Origin: an uncultured Alphaproteobacteria bacterium
Lineage (GTDB): Bacteria; Pseudomonadota; Alphaproteobacteria; Micropepsales; Micropepsaceae
DNA: 64,000 nucleotides
Reading direction: 5' to 3'
NCBI GenBank assembly: GCA_902825865.1
Contig: CADECX010000002.1
Span: 46,014 to 110,013, forward strand
This document shows positions 42,487 through 64,000 of this stretch, piece by piece; the first letter of the stretch is position 1, and each line of letters starts with the position of its first letter. Both the position numbers and the translations under genes were made by a program. A model generated the notes under the pieces. The model made no database searches, was not told the DNA's origin, and saw only the letters and a list, made by a program, of their open reading frames with translations.

Positions 42487-43068
42487 CTAATGGCCGTAAC
42501 CCGGAAGCCTGTGCGTTTTGGGCTTCCAGTCCGGCAGCCGGCCATAGTCCTTGTCGCCCATCGGCATCTTGACCTTGGGCAGGCTTTCCTTGTCGAGGAC
42601 CTGATCCTCCGGGATCACCTTGTTGACGGCAAGCAGATAGGCCGTCAGGGCGTAGACTTCATCGGGGGTGAGAGTCCCTTCCTTCCCCAGTGGCATGCCG
42701 CGATTGATATAGTCCCACACGATGGTCGCATAGGGAGCGGTTATCGGCAGGATCATCCATCCCGATTTTCCTCTCCCCCGTTCCCAGACGGAAACATCCT
42801 GGCCCTTGTTCGATTGCAGCTCGGGCGCGATCGATCCTGCGCCCGCTTTGCCATGGCAGCCGGCGCAGGCTTTCTGCTGAAAGACTATTGCGCCTTCCTT
42901 GGCGCTGCCGCGGCCTTCGGGGAGTTCCTCTCCGTTCGAGCTGATCGAAATGTCCATGGCGCGGATTTCGTCCGGCGTTGGTGTGCGGCCAACGCCATAG
43001 GTGGGCGACTGGGCCAAAGCAGGGCTGCTCAAGAGCAGCGTAATCATCGCAAGTCTAAGCGAGCCCAT
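42487..43068 (-). CDS. Cytochrome c subunit partner of SoxC (SoxD-like, single haem)
   Basis: 193 residues with a Sec signal ending PALAQ. One haem-binding CAGCH (Cys68, Cys71, His72) and a later GMPLGKEG for the axial Met. It follows soxC with a 14-bp overlap, so it is the electron-accepting subunit. Classical SoxD has about 380 residues with a second domain; this one is about half that length, so it is either a reduced SoxD or a SorB-like cytochrome. The C-terminal part matches the SoxD haem region by context only. Confidence 0.83.
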   Translation of the reverse strand: MGSLRLAMITLLLSSPALAQSPTYGVGRTPTPDEIRAMDISISSNGEELPEGRGSAKEGAIVFQQKACAGCHGKAGAGSIAPELQSNKGQDVSVWERGRGKSGWMILPITAPYATIVWDYINRGMPLGKEGTLTPDEVYALTAYLLAVNKVIPEDQVLDKESLPKVKMPMGDKDYGRLPDWKPKTHRLPGYGH

Positions 43069-44347
43069 TGGTCACACTGCCATCTTTGTTGATCTTCCAG
43101 GGCATCACGCTGTTGTCGAGCCCAGGCACGCGGTAGGACCGCTCAAAAGGCACGTTCCAATATTTGGCGACCTGTTCGCGGGTCGGTTGCTGCTGCCCGA
43201 TCTCGTCGGTGCAGCGGGACAGAATCTCGGTCTCCTTGCCATCCCAAACCCAGGGATAGCCGAACCTGGTGTGCGACATGCGTTGCGGCGCCGCCTTGAT
43301 CTCGGCGCGGTTCCATTTCTTCCCGCCATCGGTGGAGACTTCCACGCTGCGAATGGCGCCGCCGCCGGACCAGGCCAGCCCGGTGATCTCGTAAAAGCCG
43401 GGGCCAGACAGTTGTTGTGCGCCGGACGGTTTGGTGATGACCGACTTGGGTCCGATCTGGAAGGCGAGCGCGGCTTCTTTCTCGCTCTTTTCGAGATGCC
43501 CATAGTCGTTATAGTTCATGTAATAACGGTCGACGACCTTGATGCGCCGCAGCCACTTGGTGTGGAAGATTCCCTCAAAGCCGGGAACCATCAGACGCAG
43601 CGGATAACCGTTCTGAGGCCGCACCGCCTCGCCGTTCATGCCATAGGCGATGATGCAGTCGTCCATCGCCTTGGCGATCGGCATGCTGGAGGCGCCCTTC
43701 ACTTCCTCGGCGCCTTCGGCGACAAACCATTTGGCGCTGGTTTTCAGGCCGCATTCCTTGAGCAGGGTGGAAAGCAGCACGCCGGTCCACTCGGCGCAAC
43801 TGACCATCCCATGCGTTTCCTGCACGGTCTTTTGCCGCCCATTGTGCCGGTTGCCCGCGCATTCGATGAAATGCGTGCGGGTTACGGAGGGCAGGCGCTT
43901 CAAATCCTCCATGCTGAAGGTCAAGGGCCGGTCAACCACCCCGTGAATCATCAGCCTGTGCTGCTTGGGGTCGATGTCCGGAACAAAGGCGCCGCGGGTC
44001 GTCGCGACATAATGGAGCGACGAGGGCGTGATCACGCCCACCGAATCCTGCAGCGGCGTGGCGATGTGAAACGTCTTGCCGAACGCGTCGGGCGAATGCC
44101 TGCCGCCCACAGGATGGGCGATGCGCACCGAAGTCACGAAATGGGAGCGCTGGCCGTATTCGACCAGTTCCTTGGTGCCCTTGACCATCGGGCTGGCGCC
44201 CGATCCATGGTCGTGTTCCGGCGCCACTGTTGGCGCCACTGTCGGCGTCTGGCCCGATGCTTGTGTTTGGCCGAGCACCGCCAATCCGCCGGCCAATGCG
44301 CCGCCGCTTTTGAGGAGATCTCTGCGCGTAGTTCGTTTCGAACCCAT
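43055..44347 (-). CDS. soxC: Sulfane/sulfite dehydrogenase molybdenum subunit SoxC
   Basis: 430 residues. Tat signal TTRRDLLKSGGALAGG. The sulfite-oxidase-type molybdopterin domain shows HFIECAGNRHNG with the Mo-ligand Cys163, then CAEWTGVLL and GYPLRLMVPG. A C-terminal dimerisation domain contains EVSTDGGKKWNRAEI. The family oxidises sulfite or protein-bound sulfane sulfur in the periplasm, passing electrons to a cytochrome c, here the overlapping gene. The soxXYZAB genes are not in this window, so the sulfite route is as likely as the Sox cycle. Confidence 0.9.
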   Translation of the reverse strand: MGSKRTTRRDLLKSGGALAGGLAVLGQTQASGQTPTVAPTVAPEHDHGSGASPMVKGTKELVEYGQRSHFVTSVRIAHPVGGRHSPDAFGKTFHIATPLQDSVGVITPSSLHYVATTRGAFVPDIDPKQHRLMIHGVVDRPLTFSMEDLKRLPSVTRTHFIECAGNRHNGRQKTVQETHGMVSCAEWTGVLLSTLLKECGLKTSAKWFVAEGAEEVKGASSMPIAKAMDDCIIAYGMNGEAVRPQNGYPLRLMVPGFEGIFHTKWLRRIKVVDRYYMNYNDYGHLEKSEKEAALAFQIGPKSVITKPSGAQQLSGPGFYEITGLAWSGGGAIRSVEVSTDGGKKWNRAEIKAAPQRMSHTRFGYPWVWDGKETEILSRCTDEIGQQQPTREQVAKYWNVPFERSYRVPGLDNSVMPWKINKDGSVTNGLA

Positions 44348-45988: not shown

Positions 45989-46061
45989 TTTTGCTTGCGC
46001 GATTGGGCTGGCGGGTGATTATTCCAGCGGGTTTTGGCCAGTGTGTTTGGGAGAAATGATC

Positions 46062-47030
46062 ATGAAGATTCTGATGCAGGCGGCGGCTATCGCCTTCGCA
46101 ATTGCAACACCAGCATTGGCGCATCAAGGCTTTGTCCCGCGCGAGGAGGTGATTCACAACTCGCCGGAATGGACGGGCGAACGCTTTCCCGACGGCCGTC
46201 CCAAAGTGCCGGATGCCATCCTGGACCGGATGAAAAGCGTCACCATGGAGGAAGCCTGGGCGACCCTGCGCTTTGCCGGTTACGAACAGCAGTATGAGGA
46301 CGGTTGGCAAACGCTCTTCGGCGATAAAATCCTGGTGGGCCGGGCCCTCACCTCGACCTGGATCCCCGGCCGGCTGGATCTGCAAAAAGTGATCGAAGCC
46401 GACGGCAAGGCCGATGGCCGCAAGGGCGGGCCCAATGCCTGGCCGGTGGACATGCTGCAGCAGCGCGACGTCTATGTCAGCGATCATTTCGGCTTGAAGG
46501 TGGGCGGCCCCTCCATCGGCGACAATGTCGGCAATGCCATCTATGCCCGCTCGGGCAGCGGCGTCGTCTATGATGGCGCGTTGCGCGACATCAACGGCTT
46601 GAAGGAGCTTCCCAACTTCATCTCCTATTTCCGCTCTTACGATCCCTCCCATCACTATGGCCGCATCGGCGATGAAGGGCGTCCGCTGAATTCCACCATG
46701 GTGGCGATCAACGGTCCCACCCGCATCGGCCACGCCGCGGTGATGCCGGGCGACGTGGTGCTGGGCCGCGACGGCGGCGTGATGTTTATTCCCCCGCAGC
46801 TGGCCGAGAAGGTGGTGCAGGATTCCGAACACACCCGCTTGCGCGACACCTTCGGTCATTTGCGCCTGCGGGAGCAGAAATACACCGCCGGCGAAATCGA
46901 CCGGGACTGGACGCCGGCCATCCAGGCCGATTTCGTCCAATGGATGAAGGACAATATCGACAAGCTGCCCGTCGTCCGCGCCGCAGTGCAGGAATATATC
47001 GATGCCCTCGCCAAGAGGGCAAAAAAGTAA
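46062..47030 (+). CDS. Exported RraA-like aldolase-family protein
   Basis: About 322 residues from the ATG at 46062, which has GGGAG eight bases upstream (an ATG six bases earlier is too close). Sec signal ends PALA-HQ. The RraA/4-hydroxy-4-methyl-2-oxoglutarate aldolase core (about 150-270) contains VYDGALRDINGL, the Arg-Asp pair typical of the metal-dependent aldolases, and MPGDVVLGRDGGVMFIP. The family cleaves 2-oxo acids; the regulator RraA is a catalytically distinct relative. It is about twice the size of RraA through extra N- and C-terminal parts. The divergent exported dehydratase could supply a keto acid substrate. Confidence 0.83.
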   Translation: MKILMQAAAIAFAIATPALAHQGFVPREEVIHNSPEWTGERFPDGRPKVPDAILDRMKSVTMEEAWATLRFAGYEQQYEDGWQTLFGDKILVGRALTSTWIPGRLDLQKVIEADGKADGRKGGPNAWPVDMLQQRDVYVSDHFGLKVGGPSIGDNVGNAIYARSGSGVVYDGALRDINGLKELPNFISYFRSYDPSHHYGRIGDEGRPLNSTMVAINGPTRIGHAAVMPGDVVLGRDGGVMFIPPQLAEKVVQDSEHTRLRDTFGHLRLREQKYTAGEIDRDWTPAIQADFVQWMKDNIDKLPVVRAAVQEYIDALAKRAKK

Positions 47031-48143: not shown

Positions 48144-48283
48144 CCGGATTCCCCGTTTGTCTCTGAAAGGGACCCTAACATGGCAATGCTAAATCCGCAT
48201 CGGTCGATAGCGTGTTTGGCTTGGACCGGCCGGAAGCCTGCCCGTACTTTTGCCGGAAATTGCGCAAGATTCAGGAGAGATGC

Positions 48284-49207
48284 ATGAGCAAATTGTCGCC
48301 GCAGGAGATGGCGAAAATCCTGGCCAAGGGACTGTTGTCCTTTCCGGTCACGCATTTCGACAGGAATTTCCAATTTCAGGAAGGCCCCTATCGCGAGCAT
48401 TGCGCCTGGCTGCTCAGCTTCAAGCGCCTGACGGGGCTTTTTGCCGCCGGCGGCACGGGCGAGTTTTTCTCCCTCACGCCCGGCGAAGTGGCGACGGTGG
48501 TGAGTGCCGCCGTAAAAGAAACCGCCGGCCAGACCCCGGTGATCGCCGGTTGCGGCTACGGCACCGCCATCGCGGTGGAGCTGGCCAAGGCCGCCGAAAA
48601 AGCGGGCGCCGATGGGTTGCTGCTTTTGCCGCCCTATCTGATGGTGCCTTCGCAGGAAGGCTTGATCGCCCATATCGAAGCGGTATGCCAAGCCACTTCG
48701 ATCGGCGTGATTGTCTATAACCGCGACAATGCCATTCTGAGCGAAGACAGTCTGGCCAAATTGTGCGACCGCAATCCCAATCTGGTCGGATTCAAGGACG
48801 GCGTCGGCGATATCGAATTGATGATGCGGGTCTATGCCAAGATGGGCGACCGATTGACCTATGTCGGCGGCCTGCCCACGGCGGAGACCTTCGCGCTTCC
48901 CTATCTGGAAATGGGCGTCACCACCTACTCCTCCGCCATCTACAATTTCATGCCGGAATGGGCGCTGGCCTTTTATGACGCGGTACGGGCCAAGGATCAC
49001 GCCAAGGTGATGAAGGGGCTGAAAGAATTCGTGCTGCCCTATATCGCCATCCGCAACGAGAACAAGGGTTACGCGGTTTCCATCGTCAAGGCGGGCATGA
49101 CGGCCATCGGCCGTTCGGCCGGACCGGTGCGCACGCCCCTGACGGAACTGACCCCGGACCAGTTCTCGCGCCTGAAGCGGCTGATCGACACCGCCAAACC
49201 GGTTTAA
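48284..49207 (+). CDS. kdgD: 5-dehydro-4-deoxyglucarate dehydratase
   Basis: 307 residues, preceded by AGGAGAGATGC. It is a DapA-like aldolase-class barrel with [13 protein letters not shown], Tyr145 in IVYNRDN and Schiff-base Lys171 in VGFKDGVGD. KdgD removes water and CO2 from 5-dehydro-4-deoxy-D-glucarate to give 2,5-dioxopentanoate (alpha-ketoglutarate semialdehyde). Both GudD and GarD, encoded downstream, make its substrate, so the cluster is a complete entry into the oxidative hexarate route except for the semialdehyde dehydrogenase. Confidence 0.93.
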
Positions 49208-50306: not shown

Positions 50307-51632
50307 ATGACGGACGCAACCGCGGACACGCGCAACAGCCATATCCGTTTCTGGATCGTCGCGACCCTGTTCATTGTCTCCGCCATCAACTACGCCGAAC
50401 GCGCCACCCTCTCCTATACCGGCTCGCAGATGTCGGACGAGCTGGGCATCACCACCATCCAGTTGGGCTATATCTTCTCCGCCTTTGGCTGGTCCTATGT
50501 CGCGGGACAGATTCCCGGCGGCGCGCTGCTGGACCGCTTCGGTTCGCGGCCCGTCTATCTGTGGGCCATCTTCCTGTGGTCGATCTTCACCGGCCTGCAG
50601 GCTTTCGCCGCTTCCTTCGCCTTCATCCCCGTCATGATCAGCATGTTCCTGCTGCGCTTCATGGTGGGCTTTGCGGAGTCGCCGTCCTTCCCGGCCAATG
50701 CCCGCATCGTCGCGAACTGGTTTCCCAACGCGGAGCGCGGCACCGCAAGCGCAATCTTCAACTCCTCACAATATTTCTCCCTGGTCGCCTTCGCACCCCT
50801 GATGGGCTATGTCACCGGCGCTTATGGCTGGCGCCACACCTATATGGTGATGGGCGCCGTCGGGCTGCTGGGTTGGGCGCTGTTCTGGGTGGTGGTGCAT
50901 TCCCCGTCGCGCCACAAGCAGATCAGCAAGCGCGAATATGATTATATCGAGAAGAACGGCGCGCTGGTGAATCTGGACCGTCCCGCCGCCGCGGCGCAGC
51001 CGATCCGCTGGAGCGCGGTGGGGCAGCTTCTGGCCAATCGCATGCTGCTGGGTATTTACCTGGCGCAGTATTGCATCACCGCCATGACCTATTTCTTCGC
51101 GACCTGGTTTCCCATCTATCTGGTCAGGGCACGCGGCCTGTCCATCACCCAGGCCGGCTTTGCCGCCGCGGCGCCCGCGATTGCGGGTTTTGTCGGCGGC
51201 GTGTTGGGCGGCATCCTGTCCGACATGTTGTTACGCAACAACGTGTCGCTGTCAGTTTCGCGCAAAATTCCGATCGTAGTGGGTCTTATAATCTCCTGCG
51301 CCATCCTGCTCTGCAATTTCACCGACTCCCAGACACTGGTTTTGACCTTCATGGCCATCGCCTTCTTCGGAAAGGGTGTGGCGTCGCTGGGCTGGGCGGT
51401 GATGTCGGATGCCGCGCCGCGCGAAGCCACCGGCCTGTCGGGCAGCATCTTCAACCTGTTCGGCAACGCGGCGGGCATCTTCACCCCCATCGCCATTGCC
51501 TACATCCTGAATGCCACCGGTAACAATTGGGACATGGCGCTGCTGTTCGTCTTCGCCCATTCCATTGTCGCCATGGTGAGCTATCTGTTCATCGCCGGCG
51601 AAATCAAACGCGTGGTGCTGAGGCCCATCTAG
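50307..51632 (+). CDS. MFS transporter, anion:cation symporter (GudP-like)
   Basis: 441 residues with twelve hydrophobic segments. It shows the ACS-family features [13 protein letters not shown], a GGALLDRFG loop, and [27 protein letters not shown] members such as GudP and GarP import glucarate or galactarate with protons. It stands just before gudD (17 bp) and after the LysR gene. The GGAG upstream gives a well-placed start. Confidence 0.88.
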
Positions 51633-51649
51633 CAATCGGAAAATCGCTT

Positions 51650-52987
51650 ATGCCCGAGAAGATCAGCGGCGCGCCGCGCGTCATGGATATGAAAGTCATT
51701 CCTGTCGCCGGACAGGACAGCATGCTGCTGAATCTGTCGGGCGCGCATGCCCCCTATTTCACCCGCAATCTGGTGATCCTGACCGACAGTGCCGGTAACA
51801 GCGGCGTCGGTGAAGTGCCGGGCGGCGAGAAAATCCGCCAGACCTTGGAAGACAGCCGCGATCTGGTGATCGGCGCCAGTCTGGGAACCTGGAACAACAT
51901 CCTCAGCAGCGTGGGCCGCCGTTTCGCCGACCGCGATTCCGGCGGACGCGGGCTTCAGACCTTCGACCTGCGCACCACCGTGCATGTCCAGGCGGCGCTG
52001 GAATGCGCCCTCCTCGACCTTTTGGGCCAGCATCTCGATGTGCCCGTCGCCGCTCTGTTGGGCGAAGGCCAGCAGCGCGACCAGGTGGAGATGCTGGGCT
52101 ACCTCTTCTTCATCGGCGACCGCAAAAAGACCAACCTGCCCTATCGCCATGATCAAAAGGGCGATGCCTGGACCCGTGTGCGCGACGAAGAAGCGCTGAC
52201 GCCGGATGCCATCGTGCGCACGGCGGAGGCCGCCTATGAGCGCTACGGCTTCAACGATTTCAAGCTTAAGGGCGGCGTACTGGCGGGTTCCGAGGAAATC
52301 AAGGCGATCGAAGCCCTGGCCAAGCGCTTTCCCAAGGCGCGCATTACCTTGGACCCCAACGGCGCCTGGTCGCTGAAGGAAGCCATTGGTCTGTGCAAGG
52401 GGCGCGGCGACATCCTGGCCTATGCCGAAGACCCCTGCGGCGCCGAAGGCGGCTATTCGGGGCGCGAGATCATGGCCGAGTTCCGCCGCGCCACCGGCCT
52501 TCCCACCGCCACCAACATGATCGCCACCGACTGGCGGCAGATGGTGCATGCCATCGATCTGGGTTCGGTCGATATTCCCCTGGCCGATCCGCATTTCTGG
52601 ACCATGCGCGGCAGCGTGCGCGTCGCCCAGATCTGCGCCGACCGCGACCTGCGCTGGGGCAGCCATTCCAACAATCATTTCGACGTCTCGCTGGCCATGT
52701 TCACCCATGTTGCCGCCGCCGCGCCGGGCAATATCACCGCCATCGACACCCATTGGATCTGGCAGGACGGCCAGCGCCTGACCAAGGAACCGTTCCAGAT
52801 CAAGGGCGGTTTGGTGGCGGTTCCCAAGCGCGGCGGGCTGGGGGTCGAGATCGACATGGCCGAGGTTGAAAAAGCCAATGCCACCTACAAAACCCTGGGC
52901 GACGGCGCCCGCGACGACGCGGTCGGCATGCAATTCCTGATTCCGGGGTGGAAATTCGATCCCAAGAAACCGTGCCTGGTGCGTTGA
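51650..52987 (+). CDS. gudD: Glucarate dehydratase
   Basis: 445 residues. All catalytic positions known from E. coli GlucD fall at the same numbers: Lys205 and Lys207 (FKLKGG), metal ligands Asp235 (LDPNGAW), Glu266 and Asn289 (ATNM), and His339 (GSHSNNH). The enzyme dehydrates D-glucarate (and L-idarate) to 5-dehydro-4-deoxy-D-glucarate in the cytoplasm. The upstream in-frame extension is part of the transporter gene and is excluded. The ribosome-binding site is weak, suggesting coupling to the transporter. Confidence 0.96.
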
Positions 52988-53006: not shown

Positions 53007-54551
53007 ATGAATATCCAGAACAAGCCGCCGCATGAGCCGCCGCGCCGCATCCAGGTCGCGCCTGGCGACAATGTGGCGATTGTGGTCAATGGCCTGGGCC
53101 TTCCGGCCGGCACGGCATTTCCCGACGGGTTGGTGCTGAACCATTTCGTGCCCCAGGGCCACAAGGTGGCGCTGAGCGATATTGCCGATGGCGGCGATGT
53201 CATCCGCTATAACGAAGTTATCGGCACCGCCAAGGGCGCGATTGCGCGCGGCGACTGGATCAATGAAGACAATGTGGTGATGGGCACCGCCCCGCCGCTG
53301 GATCAGTTGGAGATGGCGACGCGCCCGCCGCCCAAGCCGGAACCGCTGACCGGCCATACCTTCGAAGGCTACCGCAATGCCGACGGCACGGTGGGAACCA
53401 AGAATATCCTGGCCGTTTCCACCAGCGTGCAATGCGTGGCGGGGACCATGGAGTTCGCGCTCAAGCGCATCAAGGACGTGCTGCTCCCCAAATATCCCAA
53501 TGTCGATGACGTGGTGGTGCTGACCCATGCCTATGGCTGCGGCGTGGCGATCAATGCCCCGGCGGCAGTGGTGCCGATCCGCACCCTGCAGAACCTGGCC
53601 AACAATCCCAATTTCGGCGGCGAAGTGCTGGTGGTTGGCCTGGGCTGCGAGAAGCTGGCGCCCGAGCGCCTGCTACCGAAAGGACAAGAGACCGGTACGT
53701 TACGGTTGCAAGATGAAGCCTATGTCGGTTTCGGCGCCATGATCGACGGCATCATGGCAAAGGTGGAAGAGCGGCTGATAATCTTGAATCAGCGCAAGCG
53801 CGAGACCGTGCCGGCCGCCGAATTGATCGTCGGCATGCAATGCGGAGGCAGCGATGCCTTCTCCGGTCTCACCGCCAATCCGGCGCTGGGCTTCTGTGCC
53901 GACCTGCTGGTGCGGGCCGGCGCCACGGTGATGTTCTCGGAAGTCACCGAAGTTCGCGATGCCATTCACCTGCTGACGCCCCGCGCCGCGACCAAAGACG
54001 TCGCCGAGGCGCTGGTGCGCGAAATGCGCTGGTATGATGATTATCTTGCCAAGGGCGAGGTCGATCGCGGCGCCAACACCACGCCCGGCAACAAAAAGGG
54101 CGGCCTGTCCAACATCATCGAAAAATCCCTGGGCTCGGTGGCCAAATCCGGCACCAGCGCCATCAATGCGGTGCTGGCGCCCGGCGAAAAAGTGCGCCAG
54201 CGCGGCTTGGTCTTCGCCGCCACCCCGGCCAGCGATTTTGTCTGCGGCACCCTGCAGATGGCCGCGGGCATGAATCTGCATGTTTTCACCACCGGGCGGG
54301 GCACGCCTTACGGCCTGGCCGCCGTGCCGGTGATCAAGGTTTCGACCCGCAGCGAACTTGCCAAGCGCTGGAACGATCTGATTGACCTGGATGCCGGGCC
54401 CATCGCCACCGGCGAAAAAACCATCGAGCAAGTGGGCTGGGAATTGTTCCAGCTGATGCTGGATGTCGCCAGCGGCAGGAAACAGGTCTGGGCTGATCGC
54501 TGGGGCCTGCACAACAATCTGACCTTGTTCAATCCGGCGCCGGTTACTTAG
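53007..54551 (+). CDS. garD: Galactarate dehydratase (GarD/UxaA family)
   Basis: 514 residues. SAF domain (about 15-95), then the catalytic domain with [39 protein letters not shown] and [11 protein letters not shown]. GarD dehydrates galactarate to the same product as GudD, feeding KdgD. It follows gudD by 19 bp. It is the paralogue of the UxaA-like gene at 39449. The C-terminal eight bases overlap the 3' end of the convergent GMC gene. Confidence 0.92.
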
Positions 54552-56154
54552 AATCCTGCAAAACCATCTCGCTGCCCTTGGCCGCGATCATGATGGTGGG
54601 CGTGTTGGTGTTGCCTGAGGTAATCGTCGGCATCACCGAGGCGTCGATCACCCGCAAACGTTCAAAGCCGCGAACCCTGAGCCGTTCATCGACCACCGCC
54701 AGCGGATCGCTGGCCAAGCCCATTTTGGCGGTGCCGACGGGATGAAAGATGGTGGTGCCAATGTCACCCGCCGCATGGATCAACTCGGCATCGCCATCGC
54801 CGACATCCGGCCCGGGACGGAATTCTTCCGGCTGGTATTGCGAAAGCGCAGGCTGCGCCATCAACCGCCGCGTCAAGCGCAGGCAATCGGCGGCAATGCG
54901 GCGGTCTTCATCGGTGGAAAGATAATTGGGCGCGATCTGCGGCGGCGCGTCCAGCGCGGCGGAGGTGATCTTGACCGTGCCGCGCGATGTGGGCCGCAGA
55001 TTGCACGGGCTGACGGTGATGGCGGGAAAGCGGTGCAATGGGGTTCCGAACCGGTCCAGCGACAAGGGTTGGACGTGGAATTGAACATTGGCGCGCTCTT
55101 GCGCGGAGTCGGAGCGGGTGACGATGCACAGTTGCGATGCCGCCATGGTCATCGGCCCGCGCCGCAGCAACGCATATTGCAAAGCCATCATCGGGCGGCC
55201 CAGCAGCGAGTAATAGACCTGGTTCAAGGTCTTGACCCCGCTGACCCGGTACATGGCGCGCAATTGCAAATGGTCCTGCAGGTTGCGGCCCACCCCTTCC
55301 AGGGCGTGCTGTACGGGAATGCCCGCCTGATTCAGCCAGGCACCCGGGCCGATGCCGGAGCGTTGCAAAATCTGCACCGAGCCAATGGCGCCCGAGGATA
55401 ACAACACTTCGCCTTTGGCTTTCGCGTCAAAAACAGTATTGCCCTGCCGGTAACGCACCCCCACAGCGCGCTTGCCATCGAACAGCACTCGCTCCACCTG
55501 CACATCGGTCACCAGCCGGAGATTGGGGCGATGCAGGACCGGCTTCAGAAAACCCCGCGCCGCCGACCAGCGCCGGCCGCGCTTCTGGTTGACGTGGAAA
55601 TAGTAGCTTCCCTCATTGTCGCCGGTATTGGGATCGGCGCTTCGGGGAATGCCGCTCTCCTCCGCCGCATCGATGATGCTGTCCAATATCCGCCAGCGTA
55701 CCCGTGGCAGCTCCACCGACAGTTCGCCATCGGCGCGATGATGTTCGTTATCGCCCAGGAAATGCCGGTCCAAATGCCGGAACACCGGCCGCACATCGTC
55801 CCAGCCCCAGCCGCTCAGGCCCAACTGCCGCCATTGATCGTAATCACGAGCCTGGCCGCGCATGGAGAGCATGGCGTTGATCGAAGATGATCCACCGATC
55901 GCCTTGCCGCGCGGATAATTGAGCTTGCGACCGTTGAGGCCGGGTTCATCCACGGTCTCGAACATCCAATCGCTGCGCGGATTGCCGATCAGGAACAGAT
56001 AGCCGACCGGGATATGAAACCAGATCCAGTCGTCATGGCCGCCGGCTTCCAGCAGCAGCACGCGCTTTTTGGGATCGGCGGACAGGCGGTTGGCCAGCAC
56101 GCAGCCGGCCGAGCCCGCGCCCACCACGATATAATCATAGTCGCCGTCCAGCAT
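54544..56154 (-). CDS. GMC-family FAD oxidoreductase
   Basis: 536 residues. The FAD motif is [13 protein letters not shown]; further family blocks are [34 protein letters not shown] and a C-terminal HPVGTAKMG holding the catalytic His. GMC members oxidise alcohols such as choline or sugars. The gene is 3 bp after L-rhamnonate dehydratase, so a sugar-linked substrate is more likely than choline. There is no signal peptide, so it is cytoplasmic or on the membrane face. It overlaps garD tail to tail. Confidence 0.9.
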
Positions 56155-56157
56155 CGG

Positions 56158-57345
56158 CTACCTGGGATAAGGCCGGTGCAGCTTGATCTCGCGATTCAAT
56201 TCCACCCCGAAACCGGGCTTATCCAGCGCCGAAAGCTTGATGCGGCCATTTTGCGGCACCGGCTCGCCCAGCAATTGCGGCGCGAACATCGGCACCACCT
56301 TGTCGGCCTTGGGCGCCATCATCAGGAATTCCGCGAAGGGGCTGTTATGGCGGGTGATCACGAAATGATAGGAATAGACCGATGAGCCATGCGGCACCAT
56401 CTGCTTGCCGTGACTCTCCGCCAGATTGGCGATCTTGATCAGTTCGGTGACGCCGCCGCACCAGCCGACATCGGGCTGGATGATGTCGCAGCAATCCATC
56501 TCCAGCAGCATGCGGAAACCCCAACGCGTGGCGTCATGCTCGCCGGTGGTCACCAGCATTCCGGGCGGTACCGCCTTCTTCAGGTCGCGATAGCCCCAAT
56601 AATCGTCCGGGCTCAGCGCCTCTTCGATCCATTTCAGGCCGGATTGCTCCCAGGCCTTGGCCGCCAGTTTGGTGGCGTAATTCAGGTCCAGCGCCATCCA
56701 GCAATCCAGCATCAGCCAGAAATCCGGCCCCACGCGCTGACGCATGGCGGCAATTTCGGCCAGCGCCTTGTGCAGCCCCTCCTCGCCTTCGGCGGGTCCG
56801 TGATGCAACGGCATCTTGCCGCCGATGTAGCCCATCTCCTTGGCCAGATCGGGCCGCGCCCCGGTGGCATAGAATTGCAGCTCGTCGCGCACCGCCCCGC
56901 CTAGCAATTGATGCACGGGTTCGTCGCGCAGCTTTCCGAGCAGGTCCCACAGCGCCAGATCGACGCCGGAGATGGCGTTGATCACCAATCCCTTGCGGCC
57001 ATAATATTGGGTGGAGAAATACATCTGGTCCCATATCTTTTCGGTCTGGGCGGGATCGCGCCCTTCCAGGAAACGCGCCAGATGTTTTTCCACGATAAAG
57101 CAGGCGGGCTCGCCGCCCGTGGTGACGGCAACACCGGTGACGCCATTCTCGGCCTCGATCTCCACCACCAAAGTGCCCAGCACATTGATGCCGAAGCTTT
57201 GGCGGCTTTGCCGGTACTCCGGATAGCGCGCCATGGGGGTGGCGATATGGTCGTCGATCCAATGACCGCCGCCTTGGTCGTGGTAATCGGCACCACCGCC
57301 ACGCACAACGAAAGCGCGAACCTGCTTTATCTTGGGAAACGCCAC
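56158..57345 (-). CDS. rhmD: L-rhamnonate dehydratase
   Basis: About 395 residues starting at GTG ([12 protein letters not shown]), which matches the [12 protein letters not shown] start of the E. coli enzyme; a 15-residue extension upstream is rejected. Conserved blocks include [40 protein letters not shown], the Glu in [12 protein letters not shown] and VPHGSSVYS. It dehydrates L-rhamnonate to 2-keto-3-deoxy-L-rhamnonate. It leads a two-gene operon with the GMC oxidoreductase. Other genes of the route are not next to it. Confidence 0.93.
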
Positions 57346-57432
57346 GAACCAGCCCCTACTGCCTGTATCTACGAAAAGCCTATTATCCACAGCTACGAAT
57401 CAGAAGCCATCTGAAAGCGCTGGAATGCAACA

Positions 57433-57567: not shown

Positions 57568-59199
57568 TCAGGTAAGCCCGTCGCCGGAAATTTTCAGGGC
57601 AACGCCGAATTCGTGGCTGGCCGCAGGCGGCACCGTGACATGCAGGCCCGACGCATCCTGGGTAAAGCTTAGCGGCGCATTGCCGCCCACCACCTCGACC
57701 CGCTTCACCGATCCGCCCTTGGCCAGCGAGGCGATATTCACCGCGCCCGAGGGCCGGCCCAGAGTCATGGCGTAAAGCACCGGCCCCTTGGTGGTGAAAC
57801 GGATATCGGCGGCCTCGAACGGCTTCATCTTTTCTTCGCCGAATTGGCCGGAAGCGATTTGGGTCGGGCCCTCGCCGGAAACTTTCCAGGGCCGCGAGGC
57901 ATAGATCGCCTCGCCGAACCTTTGAGTCCAGCTGCCGATCTGCTCGACAATTTTGCGCTCTTCGGAATCGATGCTGCCGTCGCCGCGCACCGGAATGGAC
58001 AAAAGCAGGCAGCCATTCTTGGCCACCACATCGCACAAGCGGTGAATGACCGCCGCCGCGCCCATATAGCTTTTCTGATTGTAGCGTTCGCGATTGTAAT
58101 GCCAGTCGCCGATGCAGGTATCAGTCTGCCAGGGATGCGGCACGATATCGGCGCGAAAACCGCGTTCCACATCCTCCACCACCGCGGCGCGGCGGTTTTC
58201 CGGCAGCGCCTTGCAATTCACCACACCCTGCAACGAGCCATGCCAGGCGATCGAGCTGTTATAGTAATGGGCGGTGACATCCAGTCCCGCCTGCCCCAAC
58301 GGCAAATCGAAATTGTCGAAATAGATCAGGTCCGGCTTGTAGGAATCGATCAGATCCTTGCAGCGCAGATACCATTGCCGGATGAAGGCAGGATTGGCCA
58401 AGGGCGGGGTTTCGCTCCACACCCGGTCATGGGTTTCATGGAAATCATTGGCGGCCTTGATCGAGGTCAGGCCGTCGGGCATCGGCATCACTGCGCCGGC
58501 GTAAAGCTCTTGCGGATCCAGGCCCTCCCACCATTTGCCCTTGCCGTCATATTTGGTGAGCTTGAAGGCATCATAGCGCTGCCCGGCGCGCGCGCCTTCC
58601 GGGTCATAGCCATAGGCAACCTGGAACCAGTGCCAGCTATGCGCCGAATGGTTGGAGACGCCGAATTTCAGGCCGCGCGCCCGCGCCGCCTTGGCCCAGG
58701 TGCCGACAATGTCGCGCTTGGGCCCGATGCGGGTGGAATTCCAGTCATGAAAGCGGGAATTGAAATTATCGAAATTGTCGTGGTGGTTGGCCAGGGAAAC
58801 GAAATACTTCGCCCCGGCTTTGACATAGAGATCGATCAAGCCTTGCGGATTCCAGTTTTCCGCCTTCCAGCGATTGTCCATCTCCATGAAGCCGAGATCG
58901 GCGGGATGGCCATAAGTGGCGAGATGATGGTCATACTGTTTCTCGCCCTGGAGATACATGCGCCGGGCATACCAGTCGCCGGCCTCCGGCACGCATTGCG
59001 CGCTCCAATGCGCCCAGATGCCGAATTTGGCGTCGCGGAACCAGCCGGGGGCCTGGTACTGGGCTTTCAGCGATTCCCAGTCAGGCTTGAATGGCCCCGC
59101 CGCGATCTCACCCTGCGAGGCCGCGCGCGCGGCGGCGGGAAAGCCCGACACCAGGCCGAGGCTGGCAGTGGCCTTCAGCAGTTCGCGCTTGGTGAACAT
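57568..59199 (-). CDS. Exported GH29 alpha-L-fucosidase
   Basis: 543 residues from the ATG at 59199. The N-terminus TKRELLKATASLGLVSGFPAA is a signal (Tat-like with KR). The GH29 barrel shows GWFRDAKFGIWAHW, SLANHHDNFDNF and DLIYFDNFDLP, placing the candidate nucleophile at Asp295. A C-terminal beta-sandwich follows from about residue 450. GH29 enzymes release terminal alpha-L-fucose with retention. The released sugar could feed the FucP/aldo-keto reductase island. It is the last gene of a four-gene operon, eight bases after the amidohydrolase. Confidence 0.9.
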   Translation of the reverse strand: MFTKRELLKATASLGLVSGFPAAARAASQGEIAAGPFKPDWESLKAQYQAPGWFRDAKFGIWAHWSAQCVPEAGDWYARRMYLQGEKQYDHHLATYGHPADLGFMEMDNRWKAENWNPQGLIDLYVKAGAKYFVSLANHHDNFDNFNSRFHDWNSTRIGPKRDIVGTWAKAARARGLKFGVSNHSAHSWHWFQVAYGYDPEGARAGQRYDAFKLTKYDGKGKWWEGLDPQELYAGAVMPMPDGLTSIKAANDFHETHDRVWSETPPLANPAFIRQWYLRCKDLIDSYKPDLIYFDNFDLPLGQAGLDVTAHYYNSSIAWHGSLQGVVNCKALPENRRAAVVEDVERGFRADIVPHPWQTDTCIGDWHYNRERYNQKSYMGAAAVIHRLCDVVAKNGCLLLSIPVRGDGSIDSEERKIVEQIGSWTQRFGEAIYASRPWKVSGEGPTQIASGQFGEEKMKPFEAADIRFTTKGPVLYAMTLGRPSGAVNIASLAKGGSVKRVEVVGGNAPLSFTQDASGLHVTVPPAASHEFGVALKISGDGLT

Positions 59200-59207
59200 C
59201 CGCGCCG

Positions 59208-60518
59208 TCAGTGGGAACGCACGACCGGCCGCGGCCAGGACGTCCAGCGCGCATCCTGGCTGATATCGCCTTGCGGCGCATCCCAAGCCAGGGCTTCCAG
59301 GCCATTCAGGTCGTAAACGACCTTGCCGTCCTTGATGGTCAGCTCGGCCACCAGCTTCTGCGTGCCTTCCACCTTGGTGTTGACCATGTCGGTGAAACCG
59401 AAGCGGCCTTTTTGAACGCTGAGCACCGCGACATCGGCGACACTGCCCACCGAAAGATTGCCCAACTCTTCGTGCTTGATCTCGCGCGCCGGATTCGCCG
59501 TCATGCCGGCGATCACTTCCGGCAAGGTCAGCCCAATGGCCATGAACTTGCTGGCTACATTGAGAATGTCCTTGGTGGAGCTGTTCATGGCGGTGATGTG
59601 CAAGTCGGTGGAAAGAGAATTCGGCTTGAAGCCTTGCTTGATCATCGGCACGGCAAGCGAGAATTTGAAACTGCCGCCGCCGGTGCCGGTATCAAAATAA
59701 ATGCCCCGGGCGCGGCCGTCGATAAAGGCCTTGCTGGGTCCCATTGTCTTGAGGTCCTGTTCCTGGCGCAGGCCGGAATACATATGGGTATAGATATCGC
59801 CCGGCCGCAGCTTCTTGGTCAGCAGGTCATAAAGCGGACGGGTTGGGCGGTCGGCGCCGAAATCGACCATTACCGGAATATTGGCCTTGGTGCCGGCGAT
59901 CACCGCCTGCTCCACCGGAGCCCATTCCGGGCCGTCAAAATGCGCGGTCTTGATGCCGATAATGAGACCCGGATAGCGCGCCGCCATCTTGGCGGCGGCT
60001 TCGCCGTCCATGTCGAAGGTGTTGCTCTCGAACTTGCCGCCCCGCATGCCGGCGCCCACGATATTGAGCATCGCCAGGATGCGGGTCTTGGAACGATCGA
60101 TGATGCGGTCCTTGAAATCCTCGAAATTGCGCCAGCCCGCGCAACCGGCATCGATCACCGTGGTGACGCCGGTGCGGAAGGTGAAACCGTCCGGCGGAAT
60201 GCTGCTATCGCCGGCATAGGAATTGCGCTCACCGGTTCCGGTGTAATTGTGGGTATGCAGGTCAATCAGTCCCGGCGCGACCACCATGCCGCGCACGTCG
60301 ATGGTTTTGATGGCATCACCAGGCGCCAGGCCCGCCGCCACGCGGGCGATACGGCCATCCTTGATGCCGACATCCATCACCGCATCGATATTGTTCTTGG
60401 CATCGATGACGCGGCCGCCGCGCAGCAACAGATCGTAGGCGGGCAAATTCTGCGCCTGCGCAGCGGAGACTGTAAGCACCAAGGCGCTGCAGGCCAGCAG
60501 CTTCTTGAGGATGCTCAT
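59208..60518 (-). CDS. Exported amidohydrolase (D-aminoacylase/dihydroorotase-like)
   Basis: 436 residues with a Sec signal ending SAAQA. The amidohydrolase metal site begins with APGLIDLHTHNYTG, and later blocks GIKTAHFDG (possible carbamylated Lys then His), THMYSG and TDLHI complete the barrel. It resembles the deacetylase/metallohydrolase group that is often encoded next to SelA-like enzymes. Its start overlaps the SelA-like stop by four bases. Activity on an N-acyl sugar acid or amino acid is likely but unproven. Confidence 0.85.
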   Translation of the reverse strand: MSILKKLLACSALVLTVSAAQAQNLPAYDLLLRGGRVIDAKNNIDAVMDVGIKDGRIARVAAGLAPGDAIKTIDVRGMVVAPGLIDLHTHNYTGTGERNSYAGDSSIPPDGFTFRTGVTTVIDAGCAGWRNFEDFKDRIIDRSKTRILAMLNIVGAGMRGGKFESNTFDMDGEAAAKMAARYPGLIIGIKTAHFDGPEWAPVEQAVIAGTKANIPVMVDFGADRPTRPLYDLLTKKLRPGDIYTHMYSGLRQEQDLKTMGPSKAFIDGRARGIYFDTGTGGGSFKFSLAVPMIKQGFKPNSLSTDLHITAMNSSTKDILNVASKFMAIGLTLPEVIAGMTANPAREIKHEELGNLSVGSVADVAVLSVQKGRFGFTDMVNTKVEGTQKLVAELTIKDGKVVYDLNGLEALAWDAPQGDISQDARWTSWPRPVVRSH

Positions 60519-62095
60519 GCCTTGATCGCCGTCCAGGTGGCGGGACCGAATTCGCCCATATGCACATTGCCCGACGCATTGTTGCCGCGCACCGAGCCTT
60601 CAAAGGACCAGTGAATGGTGTTTCCCGGCACCGGCATATGGCTTTGCAGCTTGATTTGGTCGCCATGGACCGAGCCCTGCAAGGTGGCGTTGAAAATCTC
60701 GCCCTTGTGATTGCCGGTCACGGCATTGCCGTTCTGCGTCAGCACGAAATGCTGCTCGCCCGTGCCGCAGGTATATTGGATCGTGACCGCCCAGTTTCCG
60801 GCCACCGCCGCCGTCGCGCCGCTTGGCACAGGCGGATTGGGATTATTTCCGGGATTGCTGAGGACCTTGAAAATCCCATCGGCCAGGATGCGATCCTCGC
60901 CCGGATCCATCATGTAAGGCATCAAGGTGATGTAACTGGCCATCTGATCCGGCCGGCGGCCGACCGCCGGTTCAACCATGATGCGCGGCGTGCCGTCATT
61001 CAGGCGCTTCTCTACTTCCATACCGGTAATGCCCAGCTGGTTGGCATCCCAGCGGATGCGCAGCCGTGTCGCCTTGTTGGAAAGGCCCTGGGGCTCCAGA
61101 TATTCGAATTGCAGACCCTTGATCGGCTTGAGCCGGTTTTCGACGGTCTGCATCCAGCCGCGCCACATGCGCTGTTCGGCGGCGTGATCGCGCTTATACC
61201 ACTGGCGCATCGCCGCCAGAATGCCCATGGCTTCTTCCTTGGAACATTTCAGGGCGCGGCCATAATTGTGATGCGGCGAAGCCTGGAACCAGGCCGCCTT
61301 GATCAAGTCGGCCTTGCCCAGCAGCACGCCGGAGGATTGCGGCCCGCGCAGGCACTTGCCGCCCGAATAGCCGACAAAGCTGGCGCCCTGCTGCATATAG
61401 ACATTGGGGTTCATCGGCTCTTCCGCCGCCGCATCGACAAAGACCGGAATGTTCTTTTCCTTGGCGATGGCGAGGATGGCAGGGATCGGCAGGACGCTCC
61501 GCGCTTCCTGGGGATCGGATGTCACATAGATCATGGCGGTGCGCCCGGATATCCGCGACCGGAGTTCGGCCGCCGTCTCGACCTCGATCAGTTCGCCGCC
61601 GCCCATGCGAACGCCGACGTCATAGGGATTGCGCGAATGCTTGGGGATGATGACCTGGTCCTTGGCCTTGACCTCAGGCAGGGCCTGACACTTCTCGATA
61701 TTGCTGCCCGCGATGCAGGCGACGGTGGCCAGCACGATGGCCGCTTCGCAGCCGGTGGTGGCCATGGCGGATTCGCAACCGTTCAGCCGCGCCAATTCCT
61801 TGCCGACGCCTTCCATCATTTCGTCCATCTGGACGTAATAATGCGAGGCTTCGAACATGGCCTGCTTGACTTGCGGCAAGGAGCGCGAACCGCTGAGGAT
61901 GGTATAGGTTCCCCGCGCATTCAGGATCGGCCGCACCCCAATCTGGGTGAACAGATTGTCCTTGTCGGTGCCGGTAAAGGTGATGGTCTCCGCCGATGCC
62001 GGAGTGGAAGAGGCGACGATGGGCGTCAAGGCGCCCGCCGCCATACCGGAAGACTTAAGCAGGTCGCGGCGCGACCATTTGCCGAACAGGCCCAT
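60515..62095 (-). CDS. Tat-exported SelA-like PLP enzyme with a C-terminal beta domain
   Basis: 526 residues from the ATG at 62095, preceded by AAGGAG. Tat signal SRRDLLKSSGMAAGALT, ending near SAE. The PLP domain (about 45-420) has the family pattern: Asp221 in VFVDAAAE for the ring nitrogen and Lys247 in SGGKCLRGPQ for the Schiff base. Relatives include SelA and D-glucosaminate-6-phosphate ammonia-lyase. Residues about 430-526 form an added beta-rich domain (VTIQYTCGTGEQHF onward). Export of this family and the fused domain are unusual. Neighbours are an exported RidA and an amidohydrolase. Confidence 0.87.
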   Translation of the reverse strand: MGLFGKWSRRDLLKSSGMAAGALTPIVASSTPASAETITFTGTDKDNLFTQIGVRPILNARGTYTILSGSRSLPQVKQAMFEASHYYVQMDEMMEGVGKELARLNGCESAMATTGCEAAIVLATVACIAGSNIEKCQALPEVKAKDQVIIPKHSRNPYDVGVRMGGGELIEVETAAELRSRISGRTAMIYVTSDPQEARSVLPIPAILAIAKEKNIPVFVDAAAEEPMNPNVYMQQGASFVGYSGGKCLRGPQSSGVLLGKADLIKAAWFQASPHHNYGRALKCSKEEAMGILAAMRQWYKRDHAAEQRMWRGWMQTVENRLKPIKGLQFEYLEPQGLSNKATRLRIRWDANQLGITGMEVEKRLNDGTPRIMVEPAVGRRPDQMASYITLMPYMMDPGEDRILADGIFKVLSNPGNNPNPPVPSGATAAVAGNWAVTIQYTCGTGEQHFVLTQNGNAVTGNHKGEIFNATLQGSVHGDQIKLQSHMPVPGNTIHWSFEGSVRGNNASGNVHMGEFGPATWTAIKA

Positions 62096-62108
62096 GGGGC
62101 ACTCCTTT

Positions 62109-62582
62109 TCAGATGTAAGCGATGACGTCGATTTCGACCAGCGAATCGCCCGGAACCCAGGCGGCCGCCGTGGTGGTGCGCACCGGCGGCGGCGAACCCC
62201 AATCGTAGGTCCGATAGACCGCATTCATGCGCTCATAATCCTTGCCGTCGGCGAGTAAGACGGTGACCTTGAGGCATTTCTGCAACGAAGAACCGGCATC
62301 CTCCAGGTTCTTCTTGATCTCGTCCAGCACACCCCTGGTGTGATCCTCAATGTTGCCGAGCTTGTGATAGCCCACGCCCGCGATGAACAGCATGTTCCCA
62401 TAGACCACGGCGCGAGAGAACATGGGCTTGTTGGCCGGCGGCGGATTGGGCGGCGGATAAGGCGAACGCTTTTCCAGCTTGGGCTGAGCCTGGGCGCTTT
62501 TGCCCGACAGAGCGGCGCCGGCGGCAACAACCGCGACGGCAGCACCCTTGGTCAGCAAGCCGCGCCTGGATTTCTTGTCCAT
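62109..62582 (-). CDS. Tat-exported RidA-family enamine/imine deaminase
   Basis: 157 residues from the ATG at 62582, with GGGGAA upstream. Tat signal KSRRGLLTKGAAVAVVAAG ends near AQAQP. The RidA fold is clear, with LFIAGVG, LKVTVLLADGKDYERMN and the catalytic Arg135 in PVRTTTAA. RidA hydrolyses reactive 2-aminoacrylate-type enamines released by PLP lyases. It lies 13 bp before the SelA-like gene, in keeping with a partnership in the periplasm. Most RidA proteins are cytoplasmic, so the signal peptide is noteworthy. Confidence 0.88.
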   Translation of the reverse strand: MDKKSRRGLLTKGAAVAVVAAGAALSGKSAQAQPKLEKRSPYPPPNPPPANKPMFSRAVVYGNMLFIAGVGYHKLGNIEDHTRGVLDEIKKNLEDAGSSLQKCLKVTVLLADGKDYERMNAVYRTYDWGSPPPVRTTTAAAWVPGDSLVEIDVIAYI

Positions 62583-62689: not shown

Positions 62690-63352
62690 CTAACTTTTCG
62701 CCTTGTAGCCGCAGCCCCGCAGGAACATGTCAGCGGCGTAAGGGGCGTAAGCGTCAATCTCCGCCTTGCTCATGGGATCGCCCATCGCCGTGCGGATGCG
62801 CGCCATGTCGGTCATCATGCTGATCAGCAGCATGGCGGCCATCGGCGGATTCACCAGATCGGGCAGCAATCCATCCTGGTGCCATATCTCCAGCGCATTT
62901 TGGAAAATGCCGCGGCCACGCGTCAGGGTGGCATTGTACATTTTGGTGATGATGGGAAATCGCCGCGCTTCGGACAGAGCAATATTGATCAGGCCCGCCG
63001 CCTCGCCGCTGATCTGGGTCAATATCCGCGTCGCCAGCCCAAGAATAAACATGCGTGGCTCGACGTGGCGGGGATCGATCGCGGTCGCCATGGCATGCGC
63101 CTCCAGCGCCTGCTTGATGATGCGGTTCACCACCGCATCCACCACCGCCGCCTTGTCGGAATAGCGGGCGTAGAGCGTCTTGGTGGAGGCCCCTGCCCGC
63201 CGGGCGATCTGCTCCATGGTGGTGTCGGCAAAACTCCGCTCATTGAACAGCTCCAGCGCGGCGTCCAGCAGCCTGTCGGACACCTTGGCGGCGTCCTCGG
63301 CGTTTAAACGGCCCGGCCCACCGCGCGGTTTGGCCAGTTTTTTCTTCAACAT
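62690..63352 (-). CDS. TetR-family repressor
   Basis: 220 residues. The helix-turn-helix (about 25-70) contains LLDAALELFNERSFADTTMEQIARRAGASTKTLYARYSDK in TetR style, followed by the ligand domain. A very basic N-terminal tail (KKKLAKPRGGPGR) may aid DNA binding. It is divergent from an efflux adaptor gene, with two operator-like palindromes between them, so it most likely represses both itself and the pump. Confidence 0.9.
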   Translation of the reverse strand: MLKKKLAKPRGGPGRLNAEDAAKVSDRLLDAALELFNERSFADTTMEQIARRAGASTKTLYARYSDKAAVVDAVVNRIIKQALEAHAMATAIDPRHVEPRMFILGLATRILTQISGEAAGLINIALSEARRFPIITKMYNATLTRGRGIFQNALEIWHQDGLLPDLVNPPMAAMLLISMMTDMARIRTAMGDPMSKAEIDAYAPYAADMFLRGCGYKAKS

Positions 63353-63408
63353 TTCAGTCCTTTACAAAAAACTTGCTGATTTTTGCATCTTAGCGCTTGA
63401 CGGAAAGA

Positions 63409-63459
63409 AAAGAAACTGTTTCTTTCCCCGCCGCCAAAGGAAAAGGAACTGTTTCTTTT
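63409..63459. promoter_or_regulatory. Pair of TetR operators
   Basis: AAAGAAAC-T-GTTTCTTT (63409-63425) is a perfect palindrome. AAAGGAAC-T-GTTTCTTT (63442-63458) is a second copy with one mismatch. Their centres are 33 bp apart, about three helical turns. They lie 21-71 bp upstream of the efflux adaptor start and 57-106 bp from the TetR start. Confidence 0.75.
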
Positions 63460-63479
63460 CTTTAAACGAGGGGATCAAA

Positions 63480-64000
63480 ATGACCGACATCACTGCCGAA
63501 ACCACCGATTTCGCACCCGCCATCGATTCCACCGAAAAAGCCGCCAAGCAAAGCAAGCTGCGCAAGCGGCTGCTGATCGGCCTGGGCCTGACCGTCGCCA
63601 AGGTCGGCCTTGCCTATGGCGCCTATTACGCCTTTGAGGCTTCCAAATATGTCACCACCGACAATGCCTATGTCGGCGCTTCGGTTGCCCAGATCAATTC
63701 CCAGGTCAGCGGCCCGATCGCCAAGGTGGCGGTGGATGACACCAGGCCGGTCCGCAAGGGCGACGTCCTGGTCGTGATCGACGACAGCGACACAAAGCTG
63801 GCCTTGGCGCGTGCTCAGGCCGATTATCAGCATACCCTGCAGCGCGTGTCGCAATATTATGCCCAGCGCGCCGCCGCCGTCGCGACCGTCCAAGCCCGGG
63901 TCAGCGACGTCATGCGCACCAGTGGAGATTACATGCGCCGCCAGAATCTGGCGGAGAGCGGCGCCATCTCGCGCGAGCAGCTTGCCAATGCGCGCAGCGC
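63480..64000 (+). CDS. HlyD/EmrA-type efflux adaptor, N-terminal part
   Basis: The gene runs off the right edge; 173 residues are visible. A cytoplasmic N-tail leads to one membrane segment (about 30-50), then the adaptor core YVTTDNAYVGASVAQINSQVSGPI, a lipoyl-like half (VRKGDVLVVIDD), and the start of a coiled coil (from about residue 105, ARAQADYQ). This matches EmrA-type membrane fusion proteins that link an MFS pump to an outer-membrane channel. GAGGGG precedes the ATG. It is controlled in all likelihood by the divergent TetR repressor. Confidence 0.92.
   Translation, partial: MTDITAETTDFAPAIDSTEKAAKQSKLRKRLLIGLGLTVAKVGLAYGAYYAFEASKYVTTDNAYVGASVAQINSQVSGPIAKVAVDDTRPVRKGDVLVVIDDSDTKLALARAQADYQHTLQRVSQYYAQRAAAVATVQARVSDVMRTSGDYMRRQNLAESGAISREQLANARS

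Follow-up and report, generated by a model that had tools for sequence, protein, structure and literature searches.

Could a deacylation, elimination and deamination pathway work in the periplasm instead of the cytoplasm? The question is raised by three adjoining genes in a 64,000-nucleotide stretch of DNA (the window; positions 46,014 to 110,013 of contig CADECX010000002.1, assembly GCA_902825865.1) from an uncultured alphaproteobacterium of the family Micropepsaceae, which encode a RidA family protein, a SelA-like pyridoxal 5′-phosphate (PLP) enzyme and an amidohydrolase. Work on RidA treats it as a guard against enamines in the cytoplasm, and the original prediction, made from the letters of this locus, held that all three proteins are exported and form such a periplasmic pathway. 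We found the signal motifs and the clustering of the three genes to be conserved across genomes, and a periplasmic catabolic relay of deacylase, lyase and RidA to be the best reading of the locus, to which we would give an even chance from sequence and predicted fold.

The genes are arranged on the minus strand in the order RidA, SelA-like PLP enzyme, amidohydrolase, GH29 fucosidase, L-rhamnonate dehydratase and GMC oxidoreductase (Table 1). The tight coupling predicted for the first three was verified: a gap of 13 bp, holding AAAGGAG, separates the RidA and SelA-like genes, and the last 4 bp of the SelA-like gene (ATGA) are shared with the start of the amidohydrolase gene; the fourth gene, which begins 8 bp past the amidohydrolase end, indeed belongs to the fucosidases. 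The N-termini read MDKKSRRGLLTKG in RidA, MGLFGKWSRRDLLKSSG in the PLP enzyme and MSILKKLLACSALVLTVSAAQAQ in the amidohydrolase, with twin-arginine translocation (Tat)-type signals in the first two (KSRRGLL and WSRRDLLK) and a general secretory (Sec)-type signal in the third, ending AQA followed by Q. A protein search with the PLP enzyme yielded 3184 homologues among 7997 scored candidates, and the 120 best listed all carried the twin-arginine motif (119 by pattern, P0079 by eye). The RidA twin arginines R6/R7 were likewise kept in at least 93% of aligned rows. Both proteins thus have what marks a Tat substrate, a twin arginine before a hydrophobic stretch that is kept in relatives, and the organism's own genome encodes TatC.

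Conservation of the module was then followed by a genome scan with one genome per species, which gave 355 pattern matches and 329 true relatives; locus counts refer to the best 80 of the 329, which include near-duplicates (e.g. L042/L044) and are not independent samples, and matches may outnumber genes, since the family searches on open reading frames take in overlapping spurious frames. These 80 loci come from Alphaproteobacteria, Acidobacteriota and three Actinomycetota (L080, L083 and L084), with one (L049) titled only ‘bacterium’. On the same strand as the PLP gene and within 2 kb, RidA was found at 57 of the 80 and the amidohydrolase at 40, bearing out the proposed co-occurrence; among the 63 loci flanked by 2 kb or more at either end, RidA was present at 48, the amidohydrolase at 36, and both within 2.5 kb at 33. 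Export calls rest on motif, hydropathy and conservation, and were made by a crude home-made heuristic that misses proteins with a misplaced start. By this caller 72 of the 80 PLP enzymes were Tat-type, as were 51 of the 57 RidA proteins within 2 kb (plus one Sec), and 30 Sec and 3 Tat signals were called among 43 amidohydrolases, against a background of 61 Tat and 166 Sec among 578 called genes around the loci. All three signals were called in 24 of 35 triads, and at least six of the other 11 (L014, L023, L038, L047, L066 and L084) have an evident signal by eye. The two Tat signals with SRR and the one Sec signal of the original prediction are therefore present and kept in relatives, and the triad proteins are very probably exported.

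Within the window's family, the long PLP enzyme (E < 1e-100) occurs in 14 of 96 genomes, and a short SelA-like form in 10 of those 14 versus 1 of the remaining 82. A tree of 42 representatives, midpoint-rooted only, has a branch with support 98/78 that splits the eight comparators from the exported forms, and the long and the short forms do not each make one clade. The window enzyme is nested there within acidobacterial sequences, a placement suggestive of transfer between Acidobacteriota and Rhizomicrobium-like Alphaproteobacteria. At 13 alphaproteobacterial-titled loci, two of which end directly behind the PLP gene, rhamnonate dehydratase lies downstream on the same strand at eight, and GMC at eight.

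What kind of enzyme is the PLP protein? SelA proper (L-seryl-tRNA(Sec) selenium transferase) was rejected at 25.9 bits against a TIGR00474 cut-off of 267.9, and membership in DgaE was rejected by family scores (TIGR01437, 174 bits with cut-off 385; NF047797, 156 bits with cut-off 600) and by residues. Both 7lc0 and 8t7j match it by sequence and by predicted fold, the SelA/DgaE fold being fold type I, and it is 26% identical to D-glucosaminate-6-phosphate ammonia-lyase (DGL). Its putative PLP lysine, K247, aligns with DGL K213 and is kept in 79/79 long and 35/35 short relatives. At DGL His-163, in contrast, the window enzyme has a gap and a Pro at the aligned positions, and its exported relatives are without this His too; at the phosphate-site positions Arg-301/332/346 it has R, E and Y, only one of the three arginines being kept. 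The C-terminal residues 430-526, for which structure prediction had been proposed, have no Pfam match and were predicted to form a small barrel (Table 1), which also turns up as a stand-alone match in many of the family's genomes, e.g. at G000:C26:18901-19185 (L009).

The partners show conserved residues of their families. RidA scored 73.6 bits with PF01042 (cut-off 27.3) and 62.2 bits with the TIGR00004 Rid subfamily, below its cut-off of 106.25; its conserved Arg and Glu are present as R135, found in 59 of 59 rows, and E150, in 58 of 59 (one gap). The genome has nine PF01042 matches in 3.77 Mb, against which the recurrence of RidA beside the PLP gene at 57 of 80 loci exceeds what chance would give. 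The amidohydrolase exceeded the NF006689 cut-off of 371 bits and fell below that of EF_0837 (TIGR03583; 199.8 bits, cut-off 432), and H88, H90, K190, H245 and D305, which we take to be the metal ligands of the amidohydrolase superfamily, were each kept in at least 93% of 41 rows.

In such a relay, an N-acyl amino-sugar acid (or N-acyl-D-amino acid) would first lose its acyl group to the amidohydrolase; water would then be eliminated from the deacylated substrate by the PLP enzyme, and the enamine set free would be hydrolysed by RidA. Tat would export the folded PLP enzyme and RidA, and Sec the amidohydrolase. The published DGL mutant H163A releases free enamine; lacking the same internal proton donor, the window enzyme may also let its enamine go loose, and RidA would be co-exported because this release takes place beyond the reach of cytoplasmic RidA. 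An unphosphorylated substrate would fit the missing phosphate-site arginines. The likely fate of the 2-keto acid would be either cleavage by an exported RraA-like protein or import through a sugar-acid-type MFS carrier into sugar-acid catabolism, represented in the window by the glucarate/galactarate island. We lean slightly towards elimination with enamine release by the PLP enzyme, and rate an amino-sugar acid as the substrate a little short of evenly balanced. The predicted periplasmic deacylate-eliminate-deaminate pathway is thus borne out in part: signal motifs, clustering and a predicted DGL-like fold have stood, while the export routes, the substrate, the enamine chemistry and the fate of the keto acid are what we infer.

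Relatives' loci hold further parts. Many acidobacterial ones (e.g. L015) show the order outer-membrane barrel receptor, RraA-like protein (Sec), short SelA (Tat), RidA (Tat), long SelA (Tat) and amidohydrolase (Sec), and others have a Tat lactonase near by. RraA-like matches lie within 2.5 kb at 34 loci (27 with a signal) and lactonases within 3 kb at 20 (18 Tat), and receptors were found within 10 kb in 35 of the 80 loci and MFS proteins in 27; tests on representative proteins upheld PF03737, PF10282 and PF25183. The receptor combines PF25183 with a carboxypeptidase-regulatory domain and may be ‘TonB-type’, although the one tested scored 20.7, below the cut-off of 27 of the TonB receptor model. 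Where present, the exported lactonase would act earlier and the receptor would take the substrate up. That an entire amino-sugar-acid route has moved outside the cytoplasm, comprising receptor, lactonase, deacylase, one or two Tat SelA-fold lyases, Tat RidA, RraA-type aldolase and MFS import of the keto acid, seems to us rather unlikely, and it is just as tentatively that RidA would then be seen as an external replacement for the lost proton donor, where housekeeping RidA is absent. BBE-type FAD (flavin adenine dinucleotide) oxidases beside acidobacterial modules (18 matches at 17 loci; L015 13096-14667, the sole one Pfam-tested, is PF01565/PF08031) were dropped as a lactone-making step, 0 of 18 having a called signal. 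A model built from the KDPG aldolase of L144 found zero matches across the 80 loci.

Several observations weigh against the relay. Of the 63 well-flanked loci, 15 have no RidA within 2 kb and 25 have no amidohydrolase within 2.5 kb; the carboxylate-site Arg-226 of DGL is variable, being Arg in 21 of 79 long forms; and Cap15, an O2-dependent PLP enzyme, equals DGL as a fold match. About 13 kb separate the window's exported RraA-like gene from the PLP gene, and no signal was called for eight GMC matches or for the BBE-type matches, so that part of the route looks non-exported. The His-163 argument is weakened as well. That residue is kept in 22/22 DGL-like non-exported relatives, and yet among the ten f10/f70 relatives that carry it, seven have a match to the RidA family in the surrounding stretch examined, five of them with E < 1e-4 and on the same strand, the weaker ones being L111 (0.005) and L120 (0.0002, other strand, Pfam-confirmed as L143); the L112 match was Pfam-confirmed too, L112 and L143 being of the PF14588 YjgF type. 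At 20 further alphaproteobacterial loci (20 of 39 matches outside the window's family), whose central SelA-like proteins had no signal call in 17 cases, Sec in two and Tat in one, position 163 is His in 8 and not His in 12, and 11 of those 12 have no RidA match in the fetched stretch. Arg-332 and Arg-346 are both missing in 11 of these 20 mostly signal-less proteins, so loss of the arginines, like that of His-163, is not special to the exported clade. A strict rule by which enzymes without His-163 have a RidA neighbour and those with it have none was thus tested and rejected. The triad itself occurs in 0 of the 20, with RidA at one, 5 kb off, and an amidohydrolase match at three, adjacent in L170; the triad is a feature of the exported clade, not of SelA-like proteins at large.

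Among these comparators, L111-L120 and L138-L143 encode non-exported SelA/DgaE-like enzymes retaining His-163. L162-L167 encode a further branch of SelA-like enzymes of about 500 amino acids from other Alphaproteobacteria, without His-163 or a RidA neighbour (L162 has one match 5 kb off); L162 has a Sec call and the other five have none.

If the exported relay is kept, its substrates could instead be N-acyl-D-amino acids, e.g. from peptidoglycan turnover or humic matter, which we think improbable but worth serious weight. The genome has three further SelA-like genes, L006 (Tat, TRRRNFLGG), L007 (Tat, ARRAFLKML) and L008 (Tat, SRRDFF, cut by the contig end). L007 (G000:C86, 534-7716) holds another exported set. 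In it a RidA with a Sec signal follows the Tat SelA-like enzyme after 66 bp, and the set also includes a VOC-type protein (Tat, by eye), a creatininase-family protein and an amidohydrolase of D-aminoacylase type. The last two, matched on their homologues in L147, favour N-acyl-D-amino acids. Homologous SelA-RidA pairs occur at L147, L149, L151 and L152, and the closest PDB entries to the L147 amidohydrolase are N-acyl-D-glutamate deacylase and D-aminoacylase, PpOngB also matching. OngC, described below, deaminates D-serine and D-threonine besides glucosaminate, according to PMC9537276. The genes beside the module speak for sugar acids, however: rhamnonate dehydratase, glucarate/galactarate dehydratases, lactonase and a D-galactonate-type MFS protein. 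At L008, the fourth SelA-like gene (5627-5986) lies near exported-looking VOC, metallo-hydrolase and amidohydrolase proteins (by eye).

The PLP enzyme might also be a Cap15-like O2-dependent oxidase or monooxygenase-decarboxylase in an aerobic periplasm, with RidA hydrolysing the imine. Cap15 (8t7j) is its top fold match, tied with DGL, and the periplasmic Tat substrate PvdN is counted among O2-using PLP enzymes in PMC7497351; but at 163, 332 and 346 Cap15 agrees with DGL where the window enzyme differs, and the COG3964-type partner is also found at DgaE-type loci, which makes this alternative distinctly unlikely. Smaller still is the chance of a biosynthetic or modifying module, e.g. for tailoring of envelope glycan or a siderophore as by the Tat-exported PvdN, given the catabolic neighbours, outer-membrane receptor, lactonase and MFS protein, and a patchy distribution (14/96 family genomes) that suits an accessory catabolic trait. 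That RidA serves exported proteins in general as a protector or chaperone, the family having other reported roles such as translation inhibition (PMC9537276), is very improbable, as RidA is found next to this enzyme in Alphaproteobacteria, Acidobacteriota and Actinomycetota, keeps its Arg in 59/59 and its Glu in 58/58 rows with a letter, and has family genes beside non-exported relatives too.

The catabolic relay also finds company in the window (Table 1), where an island of galactarate dehydratase, glucarate dehydratase, MFS transporter, LysR, KdgD and RraA-like protein faces the operon. Its MFS protein is a candidate importer of the keto-acid product, and its RraA-like protein possibly a distant counterpart of the exported RraA-like gene that adjoins the module elsewhere. 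Upstream of the operon (62690-63998) lie a TetR-family regulator and a divergent gene for an HlyD/EmrA-like membrane-fusion protein (by eye). At 42490-44347 a SoxC-like molybdopterin sulfite dehydrogenase, which scored 414 bits against a cut-off of 420, adjoins a cytochrome c.

Table 1. Genes and domains of the operon and the facing island, in window coordinates.
Feature	Position	Strand	Evidence
RidA family protein, 157 aa (amino acids)	62109..62582	-	PF01042 E 1.7e-20; 2dyy alignment
DgaE/SelA-like PLP enzyme, 526 aa	60515..62095	-	TIGR01437 174 bits, below cut-off; 7lc0, 8t7j
C-terminal domain of PLP enzyme, residues 430-526	60518..60808	-	predicted 8-stranded small beta-barrel
COG3964/EF_0837-type amidohydrolase, 436 aa	59208..60518	-	NF006689 401 bits; relatives 8wzy, 8je0, 2ogj
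GH29 alpha-L-fucosidase; signal-like N-terminus TKRELLK (by eye)	57568..59199	-	PF01120 4.8e-83
L-rhamnonate dehydratase (enolase superfamily); no signal by eye	56158..57390	-	NF011968 756 bits, cut-off 393
GMC oxidoreductase; no signal by eye	54544..56154	-	PF00732/PF05199
Galactarate dehydratase, facing operon	53007..54551	+	TIGR03248 887 bits, over cut-off
Glucarate dehydratase	51527..52987	+	TIGR03247 830.3 bits, cut-off 828.7
Major facilitator superfamily (MFS) transporter, D-galactonate transporter group	50307..51632	+	TIGR00893 393.8 bits, just below cut-off 395
KdgD, 5-dehydro-4-deoxyglucarate dehydratase	48212..49207	+	TIGR03249 426 bits, over cut-off
RraA-like protein, Sec-type signal MKILMQAAAIAFAIATPALA (by eye)	46059..47030	+	PF03737 1.2e-9

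If the relay is real, Acidobacteriota and their neighbours would deaminate amino-sugar acids or D-amino acids in the periplasm, with ammonia released outside the cytoplasm. RidA, exported next to one specific PLP enzyme, would then be shown as a pathway partner, offering a clean test of why the ong pathway needs RidA, and the residue at DGL His-163 would be a sequence feature whose bearing on enamine release is directly testable.

How does the module compare with known systems? The dga and ong systems follow the deacylation-deamination logic proposed here, but in the cytoplasm, where DGL resides. In the dga system of Salmonella (DgaABCDEF), DGL keeps His-163 and Arg-301/332/346, whereas the window enzyme is without His-163 and two of the arginines, and the DGL substrate is phosphorylated, being made by phosphotransferase system (PTS) uptake (PMC9529869). 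A COG3964-type amidohydrolase partner is common to DgaE-type loci as well, but the dga-like comparison loci (f53) have no RidA match, either in 12 stretches of about 4 kb or in the longer stretches L144 and L145, and the window module has one predicted to be co-exported. In the ong cluster of Pseudoalteromonas prydzensis, OngB deacetylates N-acetylglucosaminate, the PLP enzyme OngC (fold type III) deaminates, both are predicted to be cytoplasmic, and OngD (RidA) is essential for growth on that substrate, its role being stated as unknown in PMC9537276. The window PLP enzyme has the SelA/DgaE fold and is not of OngC type, and OngB, of D-aminoacylase type, matches the second cluster (L007/L147) and not the window amidohydrolase. 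Cap15, an O2/PLP monooxygenase-decarboxylase of capuramycin biosynthesis, shares the fold of the window enzyme; it is biosynthetic, and has the DGL residues at 163, 332 and 346, none of which the window enzyme has. PvdN of Pseudomonas is a periplasmic precedent for a Tat-exported PLP enzyme and acts in siderophore maturation; we know of no RidA or amidohydrolase partner for it. The original statement that no periplasmic pathway of this kind has been described held in the open-access literature (titles and abstract starts), where no description of a periplasmic or exported RidA, or of such a PLP-enzyme route, was found. Set against these known systems, the module differs in its predicted compartment, in a PLP fold unlike that of ong, in having lost His-163 and two phosphate-site arginines of DGL, and in a RidA that would be co-exported; the chemistry is known from the cytoplasm, and what looks new is its relocation.

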